Made by a program: the position numbers and the translations under genes. The notes beneath the pieces were generated by a model, which was given only the letters and a program-made list of their open reading frames with translations, did not search any database and was not told the origin of the DNA. From Flavobacterium lipolyticum (GTDB lineage Bacteria > Bacteroidota > Bacteroidia > Flavobacteriales > Flavobacteriaceae), in contig NZ_JAJJMN010000001.1 of the NCBI RefSeq assembly GCF_020905335.1, positions 2,170,001-2,234,000 on the forward strand: a stretch of 64,000 nucleotides of DNA, read 5' to 3'. Position 1 is the first letter of the stretch. Every line of letters starts with the position of its first letter. Below are positions 4,842-13,611 of this stretch, piece by piece.

Positions 4842-6584
4842 ATGAGGCTGATCATCTCTTTTATATTCTTTTTTGTTGTAAACGTCGCTGTTTCTCAGGA
4901 GAAAAAGGTTTTTACGGAACAAGAGTACTTAATATTACAAGACAAAATTCGACTAACGGCAAATGCTAATGTTGACAGTTCGATCGTATATGCTAGTCAG
5001 CTGGCAAGATCTAATAATAATAAACATCTGGCTTTTGCAAATGCTGCATTGTCTTATTTGATTCAGTTAAAAGGAAATGCAGTAAAATCTAAGGAAAAGT
5101 ACCAGTTAGCCTTAAATTACTTAGATAAAATGCCGGATGATAAAGAAAAAACTCAACTTCGGTCTTATTTGTATAATTATGCCGGCTTATCAGAATGGAA
5201 AAGAGAGAATTACAGTGATGCAATCGAAAATTATCAACAAGGAATAAAACTCTCTATAAAGATTGGGGATATTATTCAAATTGTTAAGTTTAAGAGTAAT
5301 ATTGCGGCTATAAATGTTGCTGTAGGTAATTATAGATTAGCGATTAAGGATTTGCGGAGTCTCAATGATTTTGTGGATAAAAACCAGAGCGTTTATACCA
5401 AACAGCAGTACCTTAATAATAAGAGTAACATCAATCTTAGTTTGGCAGGATCATATGAAAGCTTTTATATGAAAGACCCTAAGAAGAAGGTTTTACTTGA
5501 CTCTGCGGAGTATTTTTATCAAAAAACGATCAGTTATTCTCAAAATTTTCCGGACAATAAAATTGTGGCGAAATTAAGTTTAGGGAATATTTACGGAGAG
5601 CTGAAAGAATACAAAAATGCCGAAAAAACGTATTACGACATCATCTTTCTGGCCAATCAAAATAATATGCAGGAAATCTTATGTACTACTAATTATAATT
5701 TAGGAGACTTGTATTATAATATCAAGAAGTATGATAAGGCATTAGTGTTTTTTAAAAAATCAGATTCTATTGGCGAGATAACAAAAACCAATCAGGTAGA
5801 TCATCTGAAGTCAAATTATTATCAGGCAAAGATTTATAACATACTAAAAGAGCCTGAACTGGCTTATAAACATTCAAAAAGTTACCTTGATAATTACGAA
5901 AAATTGGAATCAAAATTAAATGATGAGATTCTGGAAGTAAATTATAAACTTGGAGTAGGAGATTTGACCAGTGAGATGGTTACCATTCAGGAGAAGTATA
6001 AATACGACGTTTTTCTGAATAAAGCTCTAAAGGTCTTTTATGTTGTTTTATTTATAGGGATCGTATTCTTGCTGATAAAAAACATACGGGATAAAAATAA
6101 AGCACATAAAAAAATGAATGCTTTAATAGAAGAGTTTAAAGCTAATTTAGAGAAGAAAAACGAACCTGAACCAGAGATTGCTGCTCTGGAGTCTGAGGAG
6201 TTACAACTTAAGAAAGAGAATGTCAATTTAAGTATTGATGAGGCAAAAGAGAATAAAATAGTAGAAAAATTGCTGGCGTTAGAAAGTAAACAGGAATTTT
6301 TGCACGCTGATTTTACTTTGCCTTATGTGGCTAAGAAGATAAAAACAAATACGACTTATTTGTCTTATGTGGTTAACAAACGATTTGGTAAGTCTTTTGG
6401 AGAATATTCGAATGAGTTGAAAATTAATTATGTTATTAATGAAATGATTACGAATCATATGTATCGTAAATATTCAACTCAGGCGATAGCAGAAAGTGTA
6501 GGTTTCAAAAATGCAGTGTCATTTGCTAAATCATTTCGCAAAAGAACTGGAGTGTCTCCAGCTCAGTTTGCGAATAATATTTAA
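4842..6584 (+). CDS. Membrane TPR sensor with cytoplasmic AraC-type HTH
   Basis: A 580 aa one-component regulator. Residues 1-19 form a signal peptide or signal anchor (FIFFFVVNVAVSQ). Residues ~40-370 are tetratricopeptide repeats rich in Tyr and Asn, for example GDLYYNIKKYDKALVFFKKS. Residues ~396-414 form a membrane helix, followed by a charged coiled stretch (~415-470). The last ~100 residues are an AraC-type double HTH (VAKKIKTNTTYLSYVVNKRFG, then AIAESVGFKNAVSFAKSFRKR). This places the TPR domain in the periplasm, where TPRs can bind peptides, and the DNA-binding domain inside. The gene converges on five GG-leader peptide genes whose last stop is 19 bp away. A peptide receptor role is inference. 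Confidence 0.85.
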   Translation: MRLIISFIFFFVVNVAVSQEKKVFTEQEYLILQDKIRLTANANVDSSIVYASQLARSNNNKHLAFANAALSYLIQLKGNAVKSKEKYQLALNYLDKMPDDKEKTQLRSYLYNYAGLSEWKRENYSDAIENYQQGIKLSIKIGDIIQIVKFKSNIAAINVAVGNYRLAIKDLRSLNDFVDKNQSVYTKQQYLNNKSNINLSLAGSYESFYMKDPKKKVLLDSAEYFYQKTISYSQNFPDNKIVAKLSLGNIYGELKEYKNAEKTYYDIIFLANQNNMQEILCTTNYNLGDLYYNIKKYDKALVFFKKSDSIGEITKTNQVDHLKSNYYQAKIYNILKEPELAYKHSKSYLDNYEKLESKLNDEILEVNYKLGVGDLTSEMVTIQEKYKYDVFLNKALKVFYVVLFIGIVFLLIKNIRDKNKAHKKMNALIEEFKANLEKKNEPEPEIAALESEELQLKKENVNLSIDEAKENKIVEKLLALESKQEFLHADFTLPYVAKKIKTNTTYLSYVVNKRFGKSFGEYSNELKINYVINEMITNHMYRKYSTQAIAESVGFKNAVSFAKSFRKRTGVSPAQFANNI

Positions 6585-6603: not shown

Positions 6604-6744
6604 TTAAGGAATTTCGTCAGTACTTCCTTTCCCATTCCCTCTGGAAGGGTCACCGTCATCATCACCTCCAAAAATTGTTTGTTGCTCTTTTCTTGATAAT
6701 TTTTCGTTTCCAAAATCTTCGAATTTTATTTTTTTAGTTTTCAT
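6604..6744 (-). CDS. GG-leader small peptide, fifth of five (RGNGKGS family)
   Basis: A 46 aa peptide starting MKTKKIKFEDFGNEKLSR and continuing KEQQTIFGG, then the core DDDGDPSRGNGKGSTDEIP. The leader shares the F-E-x-F...LS-x-KEQ-x-T-x-x-GG pattern of the four upstream paralogues, and the core shares DPSRGNGKGS. It contains no cysteine. Its ATG lies 2 nt beyond the stop of the preceding copy, which argues for translation coupling. A C39-type exporter further along would be expected to cut after GG. It is the most diverged copy in its C-terminal tail. Function unknown: signalling peptide or bacteriocin. Confidence 0.8.
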   Translation of the reverse strand: MKTKKIKFEDFGNEKLSRKEQQTIFGGDDDGDPSRGNGKGSTDEIP

Positions 6745-6746
6745 TG

Positions 6747-6884
6747 TTATAGGTTTATTAGTTGTGTAGATCCGTTGCCATTTCCTCTATTACTATCGTT
6801 GTCACCTCCACGAACCGCTTTTTGTTCTTTTTTTGAAAGTGTATTGCTTGTAAAATCTTCGAAATTTAATTTTTTATTTTCCAT
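6747..6884 (-). CDS. GG-leader small peptide, fourth of five (RGNGKGS family)
   Basis: A 45 aa peptide with leader MENKKLNFEDFTSNTLSK, then KEQKAVRGG, and core DNDSNRGNGNGSTQLINL. It is the copy in which the motif reads RGNGNGS in place of RGNGKGS and the preceding DPS is lost, so it marks which core positions tolerate change. The start is the only ATG in frame and follows the previous copy by 20 nt. Export by the C39-ABC transporter at 10123 is inferred from the double glycine. Confidence 0.8.
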   Translation of the reverse strand: MENKKLNFEDFTSNTLSKKEQKAVRGGDNDSNRGNGNGSTQLINL

Positions 6885-6904
6885 TTTTGGTAGATCTTTA
6901 GCAA

Positions 6905-7057
6905 TTAATTAGATCCCTTTCCATTTCCTCTGCTTGGATCACCAGTAATTGTATTGATAGGGGTATTAGGGTCATCACCTCCACGAACTGTTTTTTGTTC
7001 TTTTTTTGAAAGTGTATTGCTTTTGAAATTTTCGAAGTTTAATTTTTTATTTTTCAT
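6905..7057 (-). CDS. GG-leader small peptide, third of five (RGNGKGS family)
   Basis: A 50 aa peptide with leader MKNKKLNFENFKSNTLSK, KEQKTVRGG, and core DDPNTPINTITGDPSRGNGKGSN. It differs from the next copy upstream at only two residues (T/S and N/D in the variable core) and few bases, so the two look like a recent tandem duplication. The core is hydrophilic and rich in Gly, Asn, Asp and Pro, without cysteine, unlike the precursor at 9295. No modification enzyme that would act on such a core is encoded nearby. Confidence 0.85.
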   Translation of the reverse strand: MKNKKLNFENFKSNTLSKKEQKTVRGGDDPNTPINTITGDPSRGNGKGSN

Positions 7058-7076
7058 GATTTGATTTTTTTATTGA

Positions 7077-7229
7077 TTAATTAGATCCTTTTCCATTTCC
7101 TCTACTTGGATCACCAGTAATTGTATCGATAGGACTATTAGGATCGTCACCTCCACGAACCGTTTTTTGTTCTTTTTTTGAAAGTGTATTGCTTTTGAAA
7201 TTTTCGAAGTTTAATTTTTTATTTTTCAT
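7077..7229 (-). CDS. GG-leader small peptide, second of five (RGNGKGS family)
   Basis: A 50 aa peptide, near-identical to the copy at 6905-7057: leader MKNKKLNFENFKSNTLSK, KEQKTVRGG, and core DDPNSPIDTITGDPSRGNGKGSN. The 19 nt gaps before and after it also match the neighbouring copy. The few differences between the two are concentrated in the core ahead of the invariant DPSRGNGKGSN tail, so leader and tail appear to be under constraint. Confidence 0.85.
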   Translation of the reverse strand: MKNKKLNFENFKSNTLSKKEQKTVRGGDDPNSPIDTITGDPSRGNGKGSN

Positions 7230-7249
7230 GATTTGATTTTTTTAAATGA

Positions 7250-7387
7250 TTAATTAGATCCTTTTCCATTCCCTCTACTTGGGTCACCTGGAATAATAGA
7301 TTCGTCTCCTCCCTGAACAGTTTTTTGTTCTTTTTTTGACAGTTTTTCCGATTGAAAATCTTCGAATTTTTGTGCTCGATTTGCCAT
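7250..7387 (-). CDS. GG-leader small peptide, first of five (RGNGKGS family)
   Basis: A 45 aa peptide, promoter-proximal in the run: leader MANRAQKFEDFQSEKLSK, KEQKTVQGG, and core DESIIPGDPSRGNGKGSN. Its leader N-terminus is diverged, but the LSKKEQKTV-x-GG cleavage region and the DPSRGNGKGSN tail are kept. Such selective conservation at the processing site and tail supports a real coding gene. A -7 box lies 30 nt upstream of its ATG. Confidence 0.85.
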   Translation of the reverse strand: MANRAQKFEDFQSEKLSKKEQKTVQGGDESIIPGDPSRGNGKGSN

Positions 7388-7416: not shown

Positions 7417-7424
7417 CAAAACTA
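7417..7424 (-). promoter_or_regulatory. Putative -7 box (TAGTTTTG) for the five-peptide operon
   Basis: On the minus strand TAGTTTTG fits TAnnTTTG and lies 30 nt before the first peptide ATG. No good -33 TTG is present, which would fit an activator-dependent promoter. The 259-bp region 7388-7646 is the divergent control region between the peptide run and the VKOR gene; it also holds AATCTTTG at 7607-7614, a weak -7 candidate for the plus strand. Confidence 0.45.
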
Positions 7425-7646
7425 TACAAAAAGGAAAACGCTTAATCGAGAATAGGGTTTTTGGGGTTTCGGACAAATCATTTTAAGAATAAAAGACTGA
7501 TAATCAGTTGATTGTGATTTTATTCAGACTGATATAATTTATAAATTGTATGTAGTATAATTAATAAAATGTGTACTACTAGCGTTTTTTTCTCAATAAA
7601 AACAACAATCTTTGCAGTGTAATTATGATTTTAAAGACTCGAAAAG

Positions 7647-9209
7647 ATGTTAAAACTTGTCCAAAAATTTCTACAAATAAACAAGTACTCGGAGATTAAA
7701 AATGAGTTTAAAGATTTGTTCCTTTCTCATCCAAATTATCCTAGTTTGTTTGCGATAACAGATTCTCTAGATTTACTGTCTGTAGAGAATGCTGCGATAC
7801 GAGTTCCGAAAGAGCAAATAGTAGATTTGCCTTCAAATTTTTTGGCTTATTTCAAAGAAGAGTTAATATTAGTGGAAAAGGCAAAGAATTTTGTTCGAAT
7901 CAATACGATGAAAAAAGGAAGTCAGAAAATGGCTTATGAAAAGTTTTTATTAGACTGGAATGGGGTTATAGTTGCAATTGAACCAAACAATGTTATAGCA
8001 AGAGACAGAATAAAAGTTGAATTCAGCTGGTTGAAATATGGTTTGCCACTTTTGTTGGTAGTTGGATTGTCATTTTTTTATAATACATACAATTTATTTA
8101 GCCTGTTTTTTTTAACAACATCAATTTTAGGACTCATTGTAAGTATTTTCATTGTTCAGGAAAAACTGGGATTTAAGAATAGTATCATTTCAAAACTTTG
8201 CAATTTTAGTTCTAACTCTTCCTGTAGCTCTGTAATCAATAGTAAAGAGGATAATGAAAGCAAATGGATTAGCTTTCCGGACTTGCCACTAATGTTTTTT
8301 GGAGCCAGTTTGATTGCAATTCTGGTAAAACCACTGGAGTCCTCGATTTTCATAGGTTTTTTAAGCTTATTAGCGATACCCGTTATTGTGTCTTCCATTT
8401 GGATTCAAAAATTTGAAATTCAAAGATGGTGTGTAATGTGCTTAGTGGTGTCTTCTTTGATTTTTGTACAAAGTGCTATATGGTTTGCGTCAGATTTGTT
8501 TACGTTGAGTTTTGGTTTTGCGGAAATTTTTCCATTCCTGTTCTCATTGGCACTTCTTGTTCCTATTTGGGCAGTTTTGAAAACAATTATAAAAAACATC
8601 TTAGGTACTGAAAGTTCACTTAAAGAGATGAAAAAGTTTAAAAGAAATTATTCTTTATTGAACTTCTTGTCTAAAAAAGTGCCTCATATAAATGGACTTG
8701 ATGATCTAAGAGGATTGCATTTTGGAAATAGAAATGCGGCCGTTAAGTTATCCGTAATCATCAGCCCTAGTTGTGGACATTGTCATAAAACATTTCAGGA
8801 GGCGTTTGATTTAGTATTGAGATTTCCTGATAAGATACACTTGAATGTCTTGTTTAATGTAAATCCTGAGAATGCCGAAAATCCATATAAAGTAGTAGTT
8901 GAAAGACTTTTAACCATAAACAGATCTACACCGGGAAAAACGGTTGAGGCTATTTCGGACTGGCATATTAAAAATATGAGTCTTAAGAAATGGTTGAAAA
9001 AATGGACTGTTGATTCTGTAAGTATGATGATAACACAGGAAATAAACAAACAATATGAATGGTGTTCTAAAAATGATTTTAATTACACACCTGTTAAGAT
9101 TGTAAATGATAAAATTTTCCCGGCAGAATATGAACTAGGAGAGTTAAAATACTTTTTAAACGATTATATCGAAGAGAAGGAAGAGGTTGTTTTGGAAAAA
9201 ACAGCATAG
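7647..9209 (+). CDS. C39-like/VKOR/thioredoxin fusion, disulfide-forming protein
   Basis: A 520 aa integral membrane oxidase. Residues ~1-112 align by eye with the C39 peptidase domain of the exporter at 10123 (PNYPSLFAITDSLDLL..., LPSNFLAYF, AYEKFLLDWNG) but lack the catalytic Cys and His, so this is a C39-like leader-binding domain. Residues ~130-315 hold several membrane helices with the VKOR cysteines Cys185 and Cys193 (followed by SSVINS) and the CxxC Cys262-Cys265 (WCVMC). Residues ~340-515 form a DsbA/thioredoxin-like domain with CGHC at 376-379. VKOR moves electrons from the thioredoxin domain to quinone. It lies 85 bp upstream of a six-Cys precursor, its likely substrate. Confidence 0.88.
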   Translation: MLKLVQKFLQINKYSEIKNEFKDLFLSHPNYPSLFAITDSLDLLSVENAAIRVPKEQIVDLPSNFLAYFKEELILVEKAKNFVRINTMKKGSQKMAYEKFLLDWNGVIVAIEPNNVIARDRIKVEFSWLKYGLPLLLVVGLSFFYNTYNLFSLFFLTTSILGLIVSIFIVQEKLGFKNSIISKLCNFSSNSSCSSVINSKEDNESKWISFPDLPLMFFGASLIAILVKPLESSIFIGFLSLLAIPVIVSSIWIQKFEIQRWCVMCLVVSSLIFVQSAIWFASDLFTLSFGFAEIFPFLFSLALLVPIWAVLKTIIKNILGTESSLKEMKKFKRNYSLLNFLSKKVPHINGLDDLRGLHFGNRNAAVKLSVIISPSCGHCHKTFQEAFDLVLRFPDKIHLNVLFNVNPENAENPYKVVVERLLTINRSTPGKTVEAISDWHIKNMSLKKWLKKWTVDSVSMMITQEINKQYEWCSKNDFNYTPVKIVNDKIFPAEYELGELKYFLNDYIEEKEEVVLEKTA

Positions 9210-9294: not shown

Positions 9295-9492
9295 ATGTTA
9301 AAAATCATTTTAAACTTAGAAGGTGCTCAAGAGCTAAGTGCATTCGAGCAAAAAAGCATGATAGGAGGGCAGCCAATTAATCCGCCTAAAAGATGTTGCA
9401 TTTGTCCGGGTAAAGGTTCGTCTACTCTTGTAACGTGTGATTCGATTTGTTCGAATGGTACAATACCGGCAGTACTTGAGGATTGTTTATAG
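9295..9492 (+). CDS. GG-leader precursor peptide with six-cysteine core
   Basis: A 65 aa precursor. The leader is residues 1-25, MLKIILNLEGAQELSAFEQ then KSMIGG, a typical Bacteroidetes double-glycine leader. The 40-residue core runs from Gln26 to Leu65 with cysteines at 34, 35, 37, 48, 52 and 64, enough for three disulfides. It lies between the VKOR-thioredoxin gene and the C39-ABC exporter gene, so oxidative folding and GG cleavage during export are strongly suggested by context. It is likely a bacteriocin-like or signalling peptide; activity is not shown by sequence. Confidence 0.88.
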   Translation: MLKIILNLEGAQELSAFEQKSMIGGQPINPPKRCCICPGKGSSTLVTCDSICSNGTIPAVLEDCL

Positions 9493-9804: not shown

Positions 9805-9839
9805 AACAGAGAAGATTTGTTTCTTCTCTGTTTTTTTTT
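9805..9839 (+). terminator. Intrinsic terminator after the precursor transcript
   Basis: A perfect 10-bp stem (aacagagaag / cttctctgtt), 8-nt loop, and a run of T to 9839. Confidence 0.9.
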
Positions 9840-10122: not shown

Positions 10123-12315
10123 TTGAAAAAATTCACCAATTATAAACAGGCCGATTATAAAGATTGTGGGCCGACGTGTTTAAAAATAATAGCGAAACAT
10201 TACGGCAAAACAATCAACATTCAGGAGTTGAGAGACATCAGTGAAACAACTCGTGAAGGAAGTAATTTGCTTTTTTTGAGTGACGCTGCCGAGAAAATAG
10301 GTTTTAGAACTTTAGGTGTAAAATTAAATCTCGAGCGATTAGAAGAGGCGCCGCTTCCTTGTATCCTGCATTGGAACAAAAATCATTACGTAGTACTTTA
10401 CAAAATTAAAAGAAATACCTACTATATTTCTGATCCTGCTTTTGGCTTGATCGAATACAACAAAGAAGATTTTATTAAATTCTGGATCGGAAACAATGCA
10501 GATGAATCTACTCAGGAAGGAATAGCATTATTGATTGAAGCGACTCCTAAATTTTTCCAGTCTGATTTTGATAAAGAAGACAATCATGGACTCGGATTTG
10601 GGTTGTTGGCACAATACGTGCTTCGGTACAGGTCGTTTCTCATACAATTAAGTATAGGGTTACTGGCCAGTAGTTTATTACAGCTTATTTTCCCGTTTTT
10701 AACCCAAAGTATTGTGGATGTCGGGATTCAAAATCAGAACATTCATTTTATTTACCTGATTCTTTTTGCTCAATTGTTCCTTTTTGCCGGAAGGACAGGT
10801 CTGGAACTTATTAGAAGCTGGATTTTATTACATCTTTCTACCCGAATAAACATTTCTCTTATTTCGGATTTTTTTATTAAATTAATGAATCTGCCCATTT
10901 CGTTTTTCGATGTAAGAATGACTGGTGACATTATGCAGCGTATTAATGACCATCGCAGAATTGAACGAATTTTGACAACATCATCTTTGAACGTCTTATT
11001 TTCTGTGATCAATATGTTTGTGATGGGAGGTGTTTTGGCTTATTTCAATCTGAAGATCTTTCTGGTGTTTTTTGCCGGTAGCTTACTTTATTTCGGATGG
11101 ATTACTTTGTTCTTAAAAAGAAGAGAAGTACTCGATTACAAGCGTTTTGCAGAGGTTTCCAGTGAGCAAAACAAAGTGATGGAGCTTATCAACGGAATGC
11201 AGGAAATAAAGCTGCACAACGCCGAAAAACAAAAGCGCTGGGGATGGGAATACATACAGGCAAGGCTTTTTAGAGTTTCCATAAAAGGGCTTGTTTTAGA
11301 GCAAACACAAACGATAGGTTCTTCCGTAATTAATGAATTAAAAAATATCTTCATTATATTCCTATCGGCAAAACTGGTAATCGATGGCTCCATTACACTG
11401 GGGATGATGCTGGCAATTAGTTCGATAGTAGGGAGTTTAAACGGGCCAATTACGCAGCTTATAGAATTCGTCAGGGAGCTTCAGGATGCGAAGATATCAT
11501 TGGCCAGATTGTCTGAGATTCATGAGAAAGAAGACGAAACGCAGCAAGAAGTCTATCAGACGAGTGATGTTCCTTTTGATTCGGATATTGATATTAATAA
11601 CCTTTCCTATCGATATTTAGGTTCTGATATTCCTGTTCTGGAAGATCTAACACTGAAAATCCCGGCCAATAAAGTAACGGCAATAGTAGGAGTCAGCGGA
11701 AGCGGTAAAACAACTTTAATGAAGCTCTTATTGAAATTCTATGAACCTGAAAAAGGGGAAATAAGCATCGGAAATGCACAATTGAAAAATATTTCGCAAA
11801 AAGCATGGAGATCCAATATCGGCGCCGTTATGCAGGAAGGGTTTATTTTTAGTGATACCATTGCTAATAATATTGCAATTGGTGTCGATAAAGTAGATAA
11901 AGAACGTTTGGTCTATGCTGCTGATGTAGCCAATATAAAAGAATACGTTTCAGGTTTACCATTAGGATACAATACCAAAATTGGTGCCGAAGGACTTGGG
12001 ATGAGTACCGGACAAAAGCAGCGTTTGTTAATTGCAAGGGCTGTTTATAAAAACCCGGAAGTTTTGTTTTTTGATGAAGCTACGTCGGCATTAGACGCGA
12101 ATAATGAAAAAGAAATTATGCAAAAACTGGATATTTTCTTCAAAGACAAAACAGTTGTGGTTATCGCCCATCGCTTGAGTACTGTGATGAATGCAGATCA
12201 AATTGTGGTTTTAGATAAAGGAAAAATCATCGAAATTGGCAGTCATTCTGTTTTGGTAGAACAAAAAGGAAATTATTTTGAACTGGTTAAGAATCAATTA
12301 CAATTAGGAAATTAA
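10123..12315 (+). CDS. Peptidase C39-containing ABC exporter (PCAT)
   Basis: A 730 aa bacteriocin/pheromone processing exporter of the inner membrane. The N-terminal C39 cysteine protease has Cys15 in YKDCGPTCL, His88 in NKNHYVVLY and Asp104 in ISDPAFG, so it should be active and cut after GG. Residues ~165-450 carry the six-helix membrane domain. The ATPase has Walker A GVSGSGKTT, a signature that reads MSTGQKQR in place of LSGGQ, Walker B EVLFFDEATSALD, and the His switch VVVIAHRLST. I use the TTG start (10123-10125), since it begins just before the conserved YKQADYKDCG. The adaptor gene follows after 3 nt. Confidence 0.95.
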   Translation: MKKFTNYKQADYKDCGPTCLKIIAKHYGKTINIQELRDISETTREGSNLLFLSDAAEKIGFRTLGVKLNLERLEEAPLPCILHWNKNHYVVLYKIKRNTYYISDPAFGLIEYNKEDFIKFWIGNNADESTQEGIALLIEATPKFFQSDFDKEDNHGLGFGLLAQYVLRYRSFLIQLSIGLLASSLLQLIFPFLTQSIVDVGIQNQNIHFIYLILFAQLFLFAGRTGLELIRSWILLHLSTRINISLISDFFIKLMNLPISFFDVRMTGDIMQRINDHRRIERILTTSSLNVLFSVINMFVMGGVLAYFNLKIFLVFFAGSLLYFGWITLFLKRREVLDYKRFAEVSSEQNKVMELINGMQEIKLHNAEKQKRWGWEYIQARLFRVSIKGLVLEQTQTIGSSVINELKNIFIIFLSAKLVIDGSITLGMMLAISSIVGSLNGPITQLIEFVRELQDAKISLARLSEIHEKEDETQQEVYQTSDVPFDSDIDINNLSYRYLGSDIPVLEDLTLKIPANKVTAIVGVSGSGKTTLMKLLLKFYEPEKGEISIGNAQLKNISQKAWRSNIGAVMQEGFIFSDTIANNIAIGVDKVDKERLVYAADVANIKEYVSGLPLGYNTKIGAEGLGMSTGQKQRLLIARAVYKNPEVLFFDEATSALDANNEKEIMQKLDIFFKDKTVVVIAHRLSTVMNADQIVVLDKGKIIEIGSHSVLVEQKGNYFELVKNQLQLGN

Positions 12316-12318
12316 AAC

Positions 12319-13611
12319 ATGGCAGAAGATACTACATTTGAACTAAGAAGCGAAGAAGTTCAGGATATTCTAACCAAAGTACCGCATTGGATGATTCGTT
12401 GGGGAACCGTTTTGATATTTGTCATTATTGTGATGCTTTTTTTCGTGTCCTGGTTTATTAAATATCCTGATGTTGTTACTACCCAAATTGTAATTACAAC
12501 CAATATTCCGCCAGAGAAGATCGTTTCGAAATCATCGGGTCGTATTGAGGCAATTTTAGTAAAAGACAAATCGATTGTTTCAAAAAACAGTACACTTGCT
12601 GTTATTGAAAACACGGCAAATTACAAAGATGTTTTTTTGTTGAAAAAAATCGTTGACGAATATAATATCAATGATCCCAAGAAAGCCTTTCCTTTCGAAC
12701 TGTTGAAAAATACTCAGTTAGGAGAGATTGAAAGTGCTTTTGCTGTTTTTCAGAAAGATTATCAGGCAGAACAACTAAATAAAAATTTGCAGCCTTTTGA
12801 AGTAGAAAACCGGGCACAGGTTTCTGAAAAAATTCAGATTAAAGACAGATTGGAGATTTTGCAGCAGCAAAAAGTGATCAATGAAAGTGAACTACAGCTT
12901 CAGAAAAATGAAATGGCAAGATTTGAAACATTGTTTAATAAAGGAATCATTTCTGCACAGGAAATGGAGGCTAAAAAACTGGGATATCTCCAGGCGCAAA
13001 AAAATTATAAAACCCTTTTGTCTTCCATTTCTCAGTTAAAGTCGGCTTTAATTACCAATACTAAATTGAGTCAGAACTCACAAATCAGCGGGACTAAAGA
13101 AGAAGTTACTTTAGGAAGAAATATGGCGCAGTCTTTTTATCAGCTTAAGAAAGTGATAAAAGATTGGGAATTGGCCTATGCTTTAAAGTCATCGGTGAGT
13201 GGGGTGGTTACTTTTTTGCAGGTCTGGACAGAGAATCAAACGATCAATATTGGGGATAATGTCTTCTCGATTATTCCGGATAGCAAAAATGGTTTTGTAG
13301 GTAAGGTAAAAGCACCGGCATTGAATTCAGGGAAAATAAAAGTAGGTCAGATGGTGAACATCAGATTAGCAAATTTTCCCGACAGAGAATTTGGAGTGTT
13401 AAGAGGAAAGATCCAAAATATCTCTTTGGTTCCTGATAAAGATGGAAATTTATTGTTGGATGTAGCGCTTCCCAACGGATTGGAAACGTCCTATAAAAAG
13501 CAAATCGTTTTTCAGCAGGAAATGAAAGGAAGTGCAGAGATTGTGACCGAAGATTTACGTTTAATCGAGCGGATTTTATATCAGTTTAAGAGTCTTTTTG
13601 AGCAGGTTTAA
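12319..13611 (+). CDS. HlyD family secretion adaptor
   Basis: A 430 aa membrane-fusion protein. One N-terminal membrane helix (residues ~24-48, WGTVLIFVIIVMLFFVSWFI) is followed by a lipoyl/barrel-sandwich half (SSGRIEAILVKDKSIVSKNS), a long coiled coil (~100-255, Gln/Lys/Glu-rich), the returning lipoyl half (SSVSGVVTFLQVW) and a beta-barrel domain. It should link the PCAT exporter to an outer-membrane channel. No TolC-like gene is present nearby, so the channel must be supplied from elsewhere. The 3' end overlaps the convergent trmN6 gene by 4 bp. Confidence 0.92.
   Translation: MAEDTTFELRSEEVQDILTKVPHWMIRWGTVLIFVIIVMLFFVSWFIKYPDVVTTQIVITTNIPPEKIVSKSSGRIEAILVKDKSIVSKNSTLAVIENTANYKDVFLLKKIVDEYNINDPKKAFPFELLKNTQLGEIESAFAVFQKDYQAEQLNKNLQPFEVENRAQVSEKIQIKDRLEILQQQKVINESELQLQKNEMARFETLFNKGIISAQEMEAKKLGYLQAQKNYKTLLSSISQLKSALITNTKLSQNSQISGTKEEVTLGRNMAQSFYQLKKVIKDWELAYALKSSVSGVVTFLQVWTENQTINIGDNVFSIIPDSKNGFVGKVKAPALNSGKIKVGQMVNIRLANFPDREFGVLRGKIQNISLVPDKDGNLLLDVALPNGLETSYKKQIVFQQEMKGSAEIVTEDLRLIERILYQFKSLFEQV

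Follow-up and report, generated by a model that had tools for sequence, protein, structure and literature searches.

We examined a 64,000-nucleotide stretch of the Flavobacterium lipolyticum genome (the window; contig NZ_JAJJMN010000001.1, positions 2,170,001 to 2,234,000), in which five short genes for double-glycine (GG) leader peptides lie in tandem on the minus strand at 6604-7387. Convergent with them, tail to tail, is a plus-strand gene at 4842-6584, its stop codon 19 nt away, which encodes a regulator with tetratricopeptide repeats (TPR) and an AraC-type helix-turn-helix (HTH) domain. This gene went unmentioned in the first-pass annotation of the window and is the key to the locus: the array probably encodes an autoinducing peptide and the convergent protein its receptor, which would switch on a bacteriocin-like locus. 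As grounds for this reading, the pairing of the genes, their joint absence, the constraint on coding, the arrangement of domains and the conservation of a site were all computed here.

The array consists of five open reading frames (ORFs), each with an ATG start and encoding, in order from 6604, peptides of 46, 45, 50, 50 and 45 residues separated by 2, 20, 19 and 20 nt; the ORF listing thus bears out the first-pass description of five tandem minus-strand peptides of 45-50 residues spaced 2-20 nt apart, and gives the ORF at 7250-7387 an upstream TTG start. The array's first gene is copy 1 (7250-7387, core DESIIPGDPSRGNGKGSN), followed by copy 2 (7077-7229, core DDPNSPIDTITGDPSRGNGKGSN), copy 3 (6905-7057, core DDPNTPINTITGDPSRGNGKGSN), copy 4 (6747-6884, core DNDSNRGNGNGSTQLINL) and copy 5, nearest the regulator's stop codon (6604-6744, core DDDGDPSRGNGKGSTDEIP). 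Alignment confirmed that all five have the leader LS[KR]KEQ-x-[TA]-x-x-GG, as had been claimed. The further claim that every core ends in RGNGKGS was nearly right: four of the five have DPSRGNGKGS, copy 4 instead has DSNRGNGNGS, the tail common to all being RGNG[KN]GS, and two cores continue beyond it (TDEIP and TQLINL). The copies were 66-96% identical to one reference copy, and a search of the organism's own genome with one copy returned the five array copies (E = 2e-28 to 1e-7) and only one match outside the array, which had an E-value of 0.05 and lay within an 816-residue frame. Between the most similar pair, 6905-7057 and 7077-7229, there are six synonymous and two non-synonymous differences. 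Comparison across copies, suggested earlier as a check, revealed constraint, with dN/dS of 0.34 in the leaders and 0.23 in the cores (298 copy pairs from the 80 named loci described below), and the array ORFs are therefore real protein genes under constraint.

Pfam (HTH_18 and TPR), an AF2 model and hydropathy together gave the proposed receptor the layout signal helix, TPR superhelix, membrane segment and AraC-type HTH, hydropathy peaking at residues 1-21 and again at about 389-417 and the TPR domain taking up about residues 20-385. Since an N-terminal signal helix and a membrane segment between the TPR and HTH parts are predicted, the TPR part is predicted to lie outside the cytoplasm, in the periplasm. 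In structure comparison the TPR model matched peptide-binding TPRs, including the pheromone receptors Rap and NprR, in a match (VIA) list that includes many unrelated TPR proteins; neither PlcR nor Rgg was among the matches listed, which excludes nothing. The regulator of the pair, a TPR-AraC protein, is of the one-component kind, with no histidine kinase or response regulator at its side, kinases elsewhere in the genome not having been searched. Database names for this subfamily range from "helix-turn-helix domain-containing protein" and "AraC family transcriptional regulator" to even "histidine kinase".

The principal evidence that peptide and regulator belong together is their co-occurrence. 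We counted neighborhoods in 49 regions plus the window, taking as regulators proteins scoring at least 100 bits and as peptides strict GG-pattern matches that were convergent and within 300 nt. A convergent GG peptide lay behind 26 of 33 regulators compared with 7 of 539 other genes; many of the 49 neighborhoods had been selected by the peptide, and in the fair subset (L054-L083) the count was 8 of 12 regulators. The seven misses of the pattern were L036, where an array is present with an upstream in-frame ATG, L038a, L055 and L058 (two), where leader peptides are present with an altered GG, and L045a and L076a, where a second regulator comes next. We then turned to 80 named Flavobacterium loci selected by the regulator alone, being the best 80 of 467 relatives and including one from F. 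johnsoniae strain CI04 (L115). One to seven pattern peptides were found in 71 of these, the nearest within 300 nt in every case. Seven others (L110, L114, L116, L119, L123, L128 and L163) have two or three TPR-AraC receptors consecutively before the VKOR gene, and in these one peptide gene was found, behind the last receptor; L142 has a five-copy array behind a receptor with a broken frame. A peptide thus follows the (last) receptor in 79 of 80 loci; in the exception, L159, a contig edge comes 105 nt past the receptor. A VKOR gene was found in 76 of the 80, and in the loci without one (L111, L118, L145 and L159) no more than 703 nt of sequence follow the receptor.

Wider searches of 397 and 296 genomes, scored the best 3 or 4 candidates per genome and took up to 30 loci each; absence from those genomes is no proof, nor is absence in another genome search that scored the best 9 candidates at most. 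The wider searches gave 58 regulator-like frames, with a pattern match in 14 of 15 scoring at least 355 bits (four of the 15, L164, L165, L199 and L204, repeat genomes already counted) and in 1 of 43 scoring at most 228 bits. The pattern matches at L206 and L212 look spurious; at L206 the leader peptide, 22 nt from the regulator stop, is degenerate, and at L203 the regulator is broken and an array lies farther along. L204 and L205 belong to a different family within the order. At L077 and L204 (the same genome place) we also saw four ORFs of 34-51 residues, on the same strand behind the regulator, which share FQVEELEKR[YF]EM, have variable ends and are possibly another small peptide family.

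We also counted from the other side of the array. Among 48 VKOR genes, a divergent GG peptide was present at 24 of 26 with an upstream regulator and at none of 22 without one, the two misses (L038 and L058) having peptides with altered GG or at a greater distance. Where the regulator is present the peptide tends to be too, whereas the export machinery does not predict it. This count also bears on whether the array could be a bacteriocin cocktail, that is, antibacterial peptides in a locus that the regulator merely controls. The GG leader, the PCAT at the locus, the several copies and the variation of cores between species would all suit such a cocktail, but several of the 22 VKOR genes that lack both regulator and divergent peptide retain Cys-rich GG peptides and a PCAT. 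Furthermore, the 215 cores of the named loci are mostly Cys-free (Cys in 7), with a median length of 20, a mean GRAVY of -1.37, a mean charge of -1.96 and 36% Gly plus Asn, and copies within an array are more alike (mean core distance 0.30, 299 pairs) than arrays of different species (0.64). Class II bacteriocin cores are membrane-active and usually cationic or hydrophobic; the five cores of the window differ, with GRAVY of -1.33 to -1.87, charges of -1 to -4 and no Cys. We therefore regard an antibacterial array as improbable, and given the 22 VKOR genes the toxin-cocktail half of the first-pass suggestion is not supported. Its other half, a secreted signal, fits well: the occurrence of the peptides goes with that of a receptor-like regulator more than with that of the export genes, their cores are hydrophilic and rich in Gly and Asn, and the copies of an array share a tail that differs between species.

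One syntenic locus, L060, shows regulator and array missing together. It retains the two flanking genes, the VKOR gene, eight Cys-rich GG peptides, the PCAT and the HlyD, and is without regulator and array; in their place is a gene for a 131-residue HTH_3 protein (L060:6603-6998, minus strand). No regulator of the subfamily was found in that genome at E ≤ 1e-60 with all 91 candidates scored. It looks as if one control module had replaced another there while the effectors were retained. The joint absence also speaks against the idea that the peptides are aimed at other organisms or a host and that their linkage to the regulator is hitchhiking, as do the duplicated loci L038, L057 and L058 (two pairs each), in which every regulator has its own, different peptide; even with a clear secretion signal in its favor, we consider hitchhiking very unlikely.

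The homolog search that had been proposed did find relatives. A profile of the five peptides matched 44 proteins among 187 candidates, those sources with an organism name being Flavobacterium and the proteins mostly called "rSAM-modified peptide", and 20 of 150 related genomes (own included), all of a single genus, matched at E ≤ 0.01 with arrays of up to eight copies. Of the 20-kb regions around the other 19, 18 had the gene order of the window, which runs from regulator through convergent peptide or array to VKOR and then PCAT; a HlyD was seen in 17 of those 18, the L050 region stopping within the PCAT. The nineteenth (L047, G061) was a stray peptide match and was dropped, although its genes remain among the 539 controls. 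L038 has two regulator-VKOR units, and the peptide is diverged in L035, L038 and L039. One protein, P0023 of Flavobacterium sp. B183, has the usual leader and a tail resembling another reading frame of the common core, and single copies can therefore decay. At L089 the first peptide behind the regulator has a single core with the tail motif DPSKGDGKGNT twice.

The names of these relatives raise the possibility that the array encodes the precursor of a radical-SAM-modified RiPP (ribosomally synthesized and post-translationally modified peptide). In its favor are those NCBI names and the leader domain TIGR04149, which scored above its cut-off of 25 bits in three of the five copies (27.7 bits in copy 4, 29.2 in copy 3 and 29.0 in copy 2; copy 5, at 22.8, fell below it, and the best leader match of copy 1, NF047798 at 19.8 bits, was likewise below cut-off). 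However, of the genome's 13 PF04055 matches the nearest lies at a distance of about 100.8 kb, none of the five cores has a Cys, and the two Bacteroides TIGR04149 clusters described have radical-SAM genes close to the precursor, as far as the accessible part of PMC4573289 goes. With no PF04055 match within about 100 kb we rejected this identity, which is scarcely credible, and because no radical-SAM match lies within 100 kb the database name "rSAM-modified" is without local support. The first-pass statement that no described family has this peptide therefore stands only in part: the leader matches TIGR04149 in three of five copies and relatives bear that name, while our literature search turned up no description of the core or of its receptor pairing. 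The expectation that such genes escape automatic gene calling did not hold, many relatives being annotated at NCBI ("rSAM-modified peptide", "TIGR04149 family rSAM-modified RiPP").

The tail is common to the copies of one array and different between species, and we compared its variation with that of the neighboring proteins in 68 loci. The TPR part was the most variable of those compared (distance 0.363, versus 0.217 for VKOR, 0.118 for the membrane-HTH part, 0.090 for the ferritin-like protein and 0.021 for the acyl-CoA dehydrogenase), and tail distance tracked TPR distance (partial r 0.146, p 0.001) but showed no such relation to VKOR distance (0.007). The columns most linked to the tail were 156 and 159 (one TPR helix), 202 and 208 (a helix of the next repeat) and 484 (HTH part). 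Residue 159, which was picked post hoc from all variable columns, was non-acidic in 9 loci whose tails are of the GKG type and acidic in 54 whose tails are not, leaving 5 of 68 discordant, and on a FastTree tree of three neighbor proteins 3 of 5 changes at residue 159 shared branches with 3 of 6 tail changes. We treat the correspondence of residue 159 with tail type as a lead only.

Between the array and the VKOR gene, alignment revealed an operator-like block at 7525-7567 (minus strand), in which the repeat TTATACTA/TTATATCA surrounds a near-palindrome with a spacing of 23 bp start to start, about two helical turns; AraC-type proteins often bind repeats about two helical turns apart. In 19 aligned loci (two sets) the block, which for the majority of species in the second alignment reads TTATACCACATACAATTTATAAATTATACCA, was nearly unchanged in 16, unlike most of its surroundings. 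Of 50 stretches scanned with a matrix built from nine rows, 16 had exactly one strong site each, L057 and L059 had weak sites and 32 had none; in the window the matrix found no second strong site, upstream of the PCAT included. The 21-base core has one exact match in the genome plus two places at three mismatches, and a reversed control pattern likewise had two places at three mismatches. The exact 18-mer occurred within 3.2 kb behind 71 of the 80 named regulators. In diverged pairs, tested on promoter-only stretches by first-order Markov resampling, a related near-palindrome exceeded resampled sequence (p < 0.05) in 10 of 15, the stretch tested for L059 ended just before its site, which was visible in other scans, and the same test detected no such site at four VKOR promoters without a regulator. 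The block thus appears, from sequence conservation, to be a single operator-like site between the array and the VKOR gene. A conserved array promoter is also apparent from alignment at 7417-7448 (minus strand), composed of CGATTAA (7448-7442) and TAGTTTTG (7424-7417), the form TAnnTTTG being what we take to be the Bacteroidetes promoter consensus. Because a sigma-70 scan did no better than shuffles (27 matches versus a shuffle mean of 25.5, no excess), our promoter statements rest on alignment and that consensus.

Several observations weigh against a peptide-receptor pair. The best structure matches of the TPR part were to eukaryotic LGN, and its fold is therefore that of a peptide-binding TPR and not specifically of a pheromone receptor. 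For whole-core distance the partial r was 0.169 (p 0.0045) against the membrane-HTH part and lower, 0.070 (p 0.073), against the TPR part, and leader distance also tracked the TPR part (0.230, p 0.0005) though the leader should not contact the receptor; some of the covariation is therefore linkage or general divergence, and the signal as a whole is weak and partly contrary. At L070 and L082, without a close regulator, a Cys-free GG peptide is present in another position, and at L069 and L082 a distant TPR-HTH protein (about 70 bits) lies near the VKOR gene without pairing. Paired peptides without a standard GG occur at L038a, L055, L058 (twice) and L206, that of L035 lacks a Gly-rich tail, and a PCAT is not adjacent to every regulator-peptide pair. 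Finally, the resampling test found no operator-like site at L058 (two), L075 or L077.

Taking these points together we still favor an autoinducing peptide and its receptor, for which we infer cleavage, export, binding, the direction of regulation and density sensing from the protein families named. The precursor would be cut after the GG and its core exported by the PCAT-HlyD pair, giving a mature hydrophilic peptide of 18-23 residues with a Gly/Asn-rich tail typical of the species. On the periplasmic side the core would dock in the TPR superhelix of the membrane-anchored regulator, whose cytoplasmic AraC-type domain would then act at the single putative operator between array and VKOR gene. 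Activation there would raise expression of the array itself, a positive feedback, together with the VKOR gene (disulfide-making) and the Cys-rich peptide gene, with the PCAT and HlyD raised directly or by read-through. Such a signal may report cell density, export capacity or kin identity. The peptide might instead be a ligand that reports export state to the regulator inside one cell, or one that restrains it. The pairing evidence fits that arrangement equally, and since the receptor domain is predicted to be periplasmic a periplasmic peptide could act without leaving the cell; however, the HlyD-type adaptor beside the PCAT suggests export through both membranes, and the species-specific tails suggest, without proving, cell-cell specificity. 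We judge a ligand acting within the cell rather unlikely.

The genes that the proposed receptor would switch on run divergently from the array, all on the plus strand. First is a VKOR-thioredoxin-like protein (7647-9209; Pfam VKOR 43.7 bits, with Thioredoxin_4 at 18.8 and C39 at 18.5 bits, both below cut-off), which presumably serves disulfide formation; its weakly C39-like N-terminus is perhaps a leader-binding domain. It is followed by a Cys-rich GG-leader peptide (9295-9492), identified from the ORF listing and a GG-leader scan and with no Pfam or NCBIfam match, which is the probable effector of the locus. Then come the PCAT (10123-12315), with a C39 peptidase and an ABC exporter by Pfam, and a HlyD-type membrane fusion protein (12319-13611; Pfam HlyD_3 51.1 bits). 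In an alignment of the PCAT peptidase to PCAT1 (4ry2) the Cys, His and Asp that we take to be catalytic are in place. Between the Cys-rich peptide and the PCAT is a terminator-like hairpin with a T-run (9805-9832, plus strand), and the PCAT may therefore have a promoter of its own, although shuffles of the region yielded 2.1 terminator-like sites on average. Rfam gave no matches in the window at gathering scores. Cys-rich GG peptides also lie between VKOR and PCAT in L036, L037, L040-L046, L048, L049 and L052; one type of them (IP[ED]CW...SR[LV]CC), not present in the window, is almost invariant in those 12 loci, which is unusual for a bacteriocin.

We compared the locus with known systems. 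Class II bacteriocin loci have GG-peptide inducing systems of the BlpC, plantaricin and ComC type, and judged from its genes the present locus is similar in having a putative GG pheromone beside bacteriocin-like GG genes, a PCAT exporter, and a conserved site between the pheromone genes and the exporter side. Those systems are Gram-positive and use a two-component pair, whereas here, in a Gram-negative cell plan, one transmembrane TPR protein would by analogy both sense and bind DNA. Pheromone and bacteriocin genes of those systems carry a shared control site; in the window the matrix scan gave one conserved, predicted site, between array and VKOR gene, and no second strong one. The RRNPP systems (Rap-Phr, NprR-NprX, PlcR-PapR and Rgg-SHP) resemble it in the TPR superhelix of the receptor (by Pfam and the model) and in a propeptide gene adjoining the receptor gene, as in 79 of the 80 named loci here. 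They differ in that their receptors bind re-imported peptide in the cytoplasm, while the present one, with its signal helix, membrane segment and AraC-type HTH, is predicted not to be cytoplasmic and to hold its TPR part outside; their propeptides carry a basic-hydrophobic export signal instead of a hydrophilic GG leader for a PCAT; and they belong to Bacillota, the present system to Flavobacteriales. The RRNPP survey covered complete Firmicutes genomes, according to the accessible part of PMC10075063. With the TIGR04149 RiPPs (GG-Bacteroidales) the array has in common a leader domain that scores above cut-off in three of its five copies, and it differs in its distance from any radical-SAM gene, its Cys-free core and its TPR-AraC partner. 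Bacteroidales RiPP clusters combine a PCAT with GG peptides and TPR or HTH genes, and their authors raise a possible signaling role from the signaling proteins nearby (PMC10352776, accessible part); gene order differs, and that part mentions neither a dedicated pairing of peptide and receptor nor an operator nor a joint loss.

Our literature search recognized no description of this core or of a TPR-AraC receptor with a partner peptide in Bacteroidota. Peptide autoinduction is known; of this receptor build combined with this export route we saw no earlier instance. To our knowledge no peptide pheromone circuit has been established in Bacteroidota, and the search likewise recognized none. We tentatively propose, at somewhat less than an even chance, a new class of cell-cell signaling in which a PCAT-exported pheromone acts on a membrane-spanning TPR-AraC factor, with species-specific pherotypes set by the Gly/Asn-rich tail and by matching residues of the TPR groove, throughout Flavobacterium and in at least one other family of the order. 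The rule that each receptor has its cognate peptide alongside assigns proposed ligands to a TPR-AraC subfamily that bears generic database names, and argues that the "rSAM-modified peptides" of these loci are misnamed. Since both proposed partners are identified here, along with a likely DNA site and a relative that naturally lacks the two together, a simple bench test of the question is possible. If the proposal is true, this would be the first known peptide quorum-sensing circuit of Bacteroidota, and a synthetic peptide could switch on the Cys-rich peptides of these loci at will.
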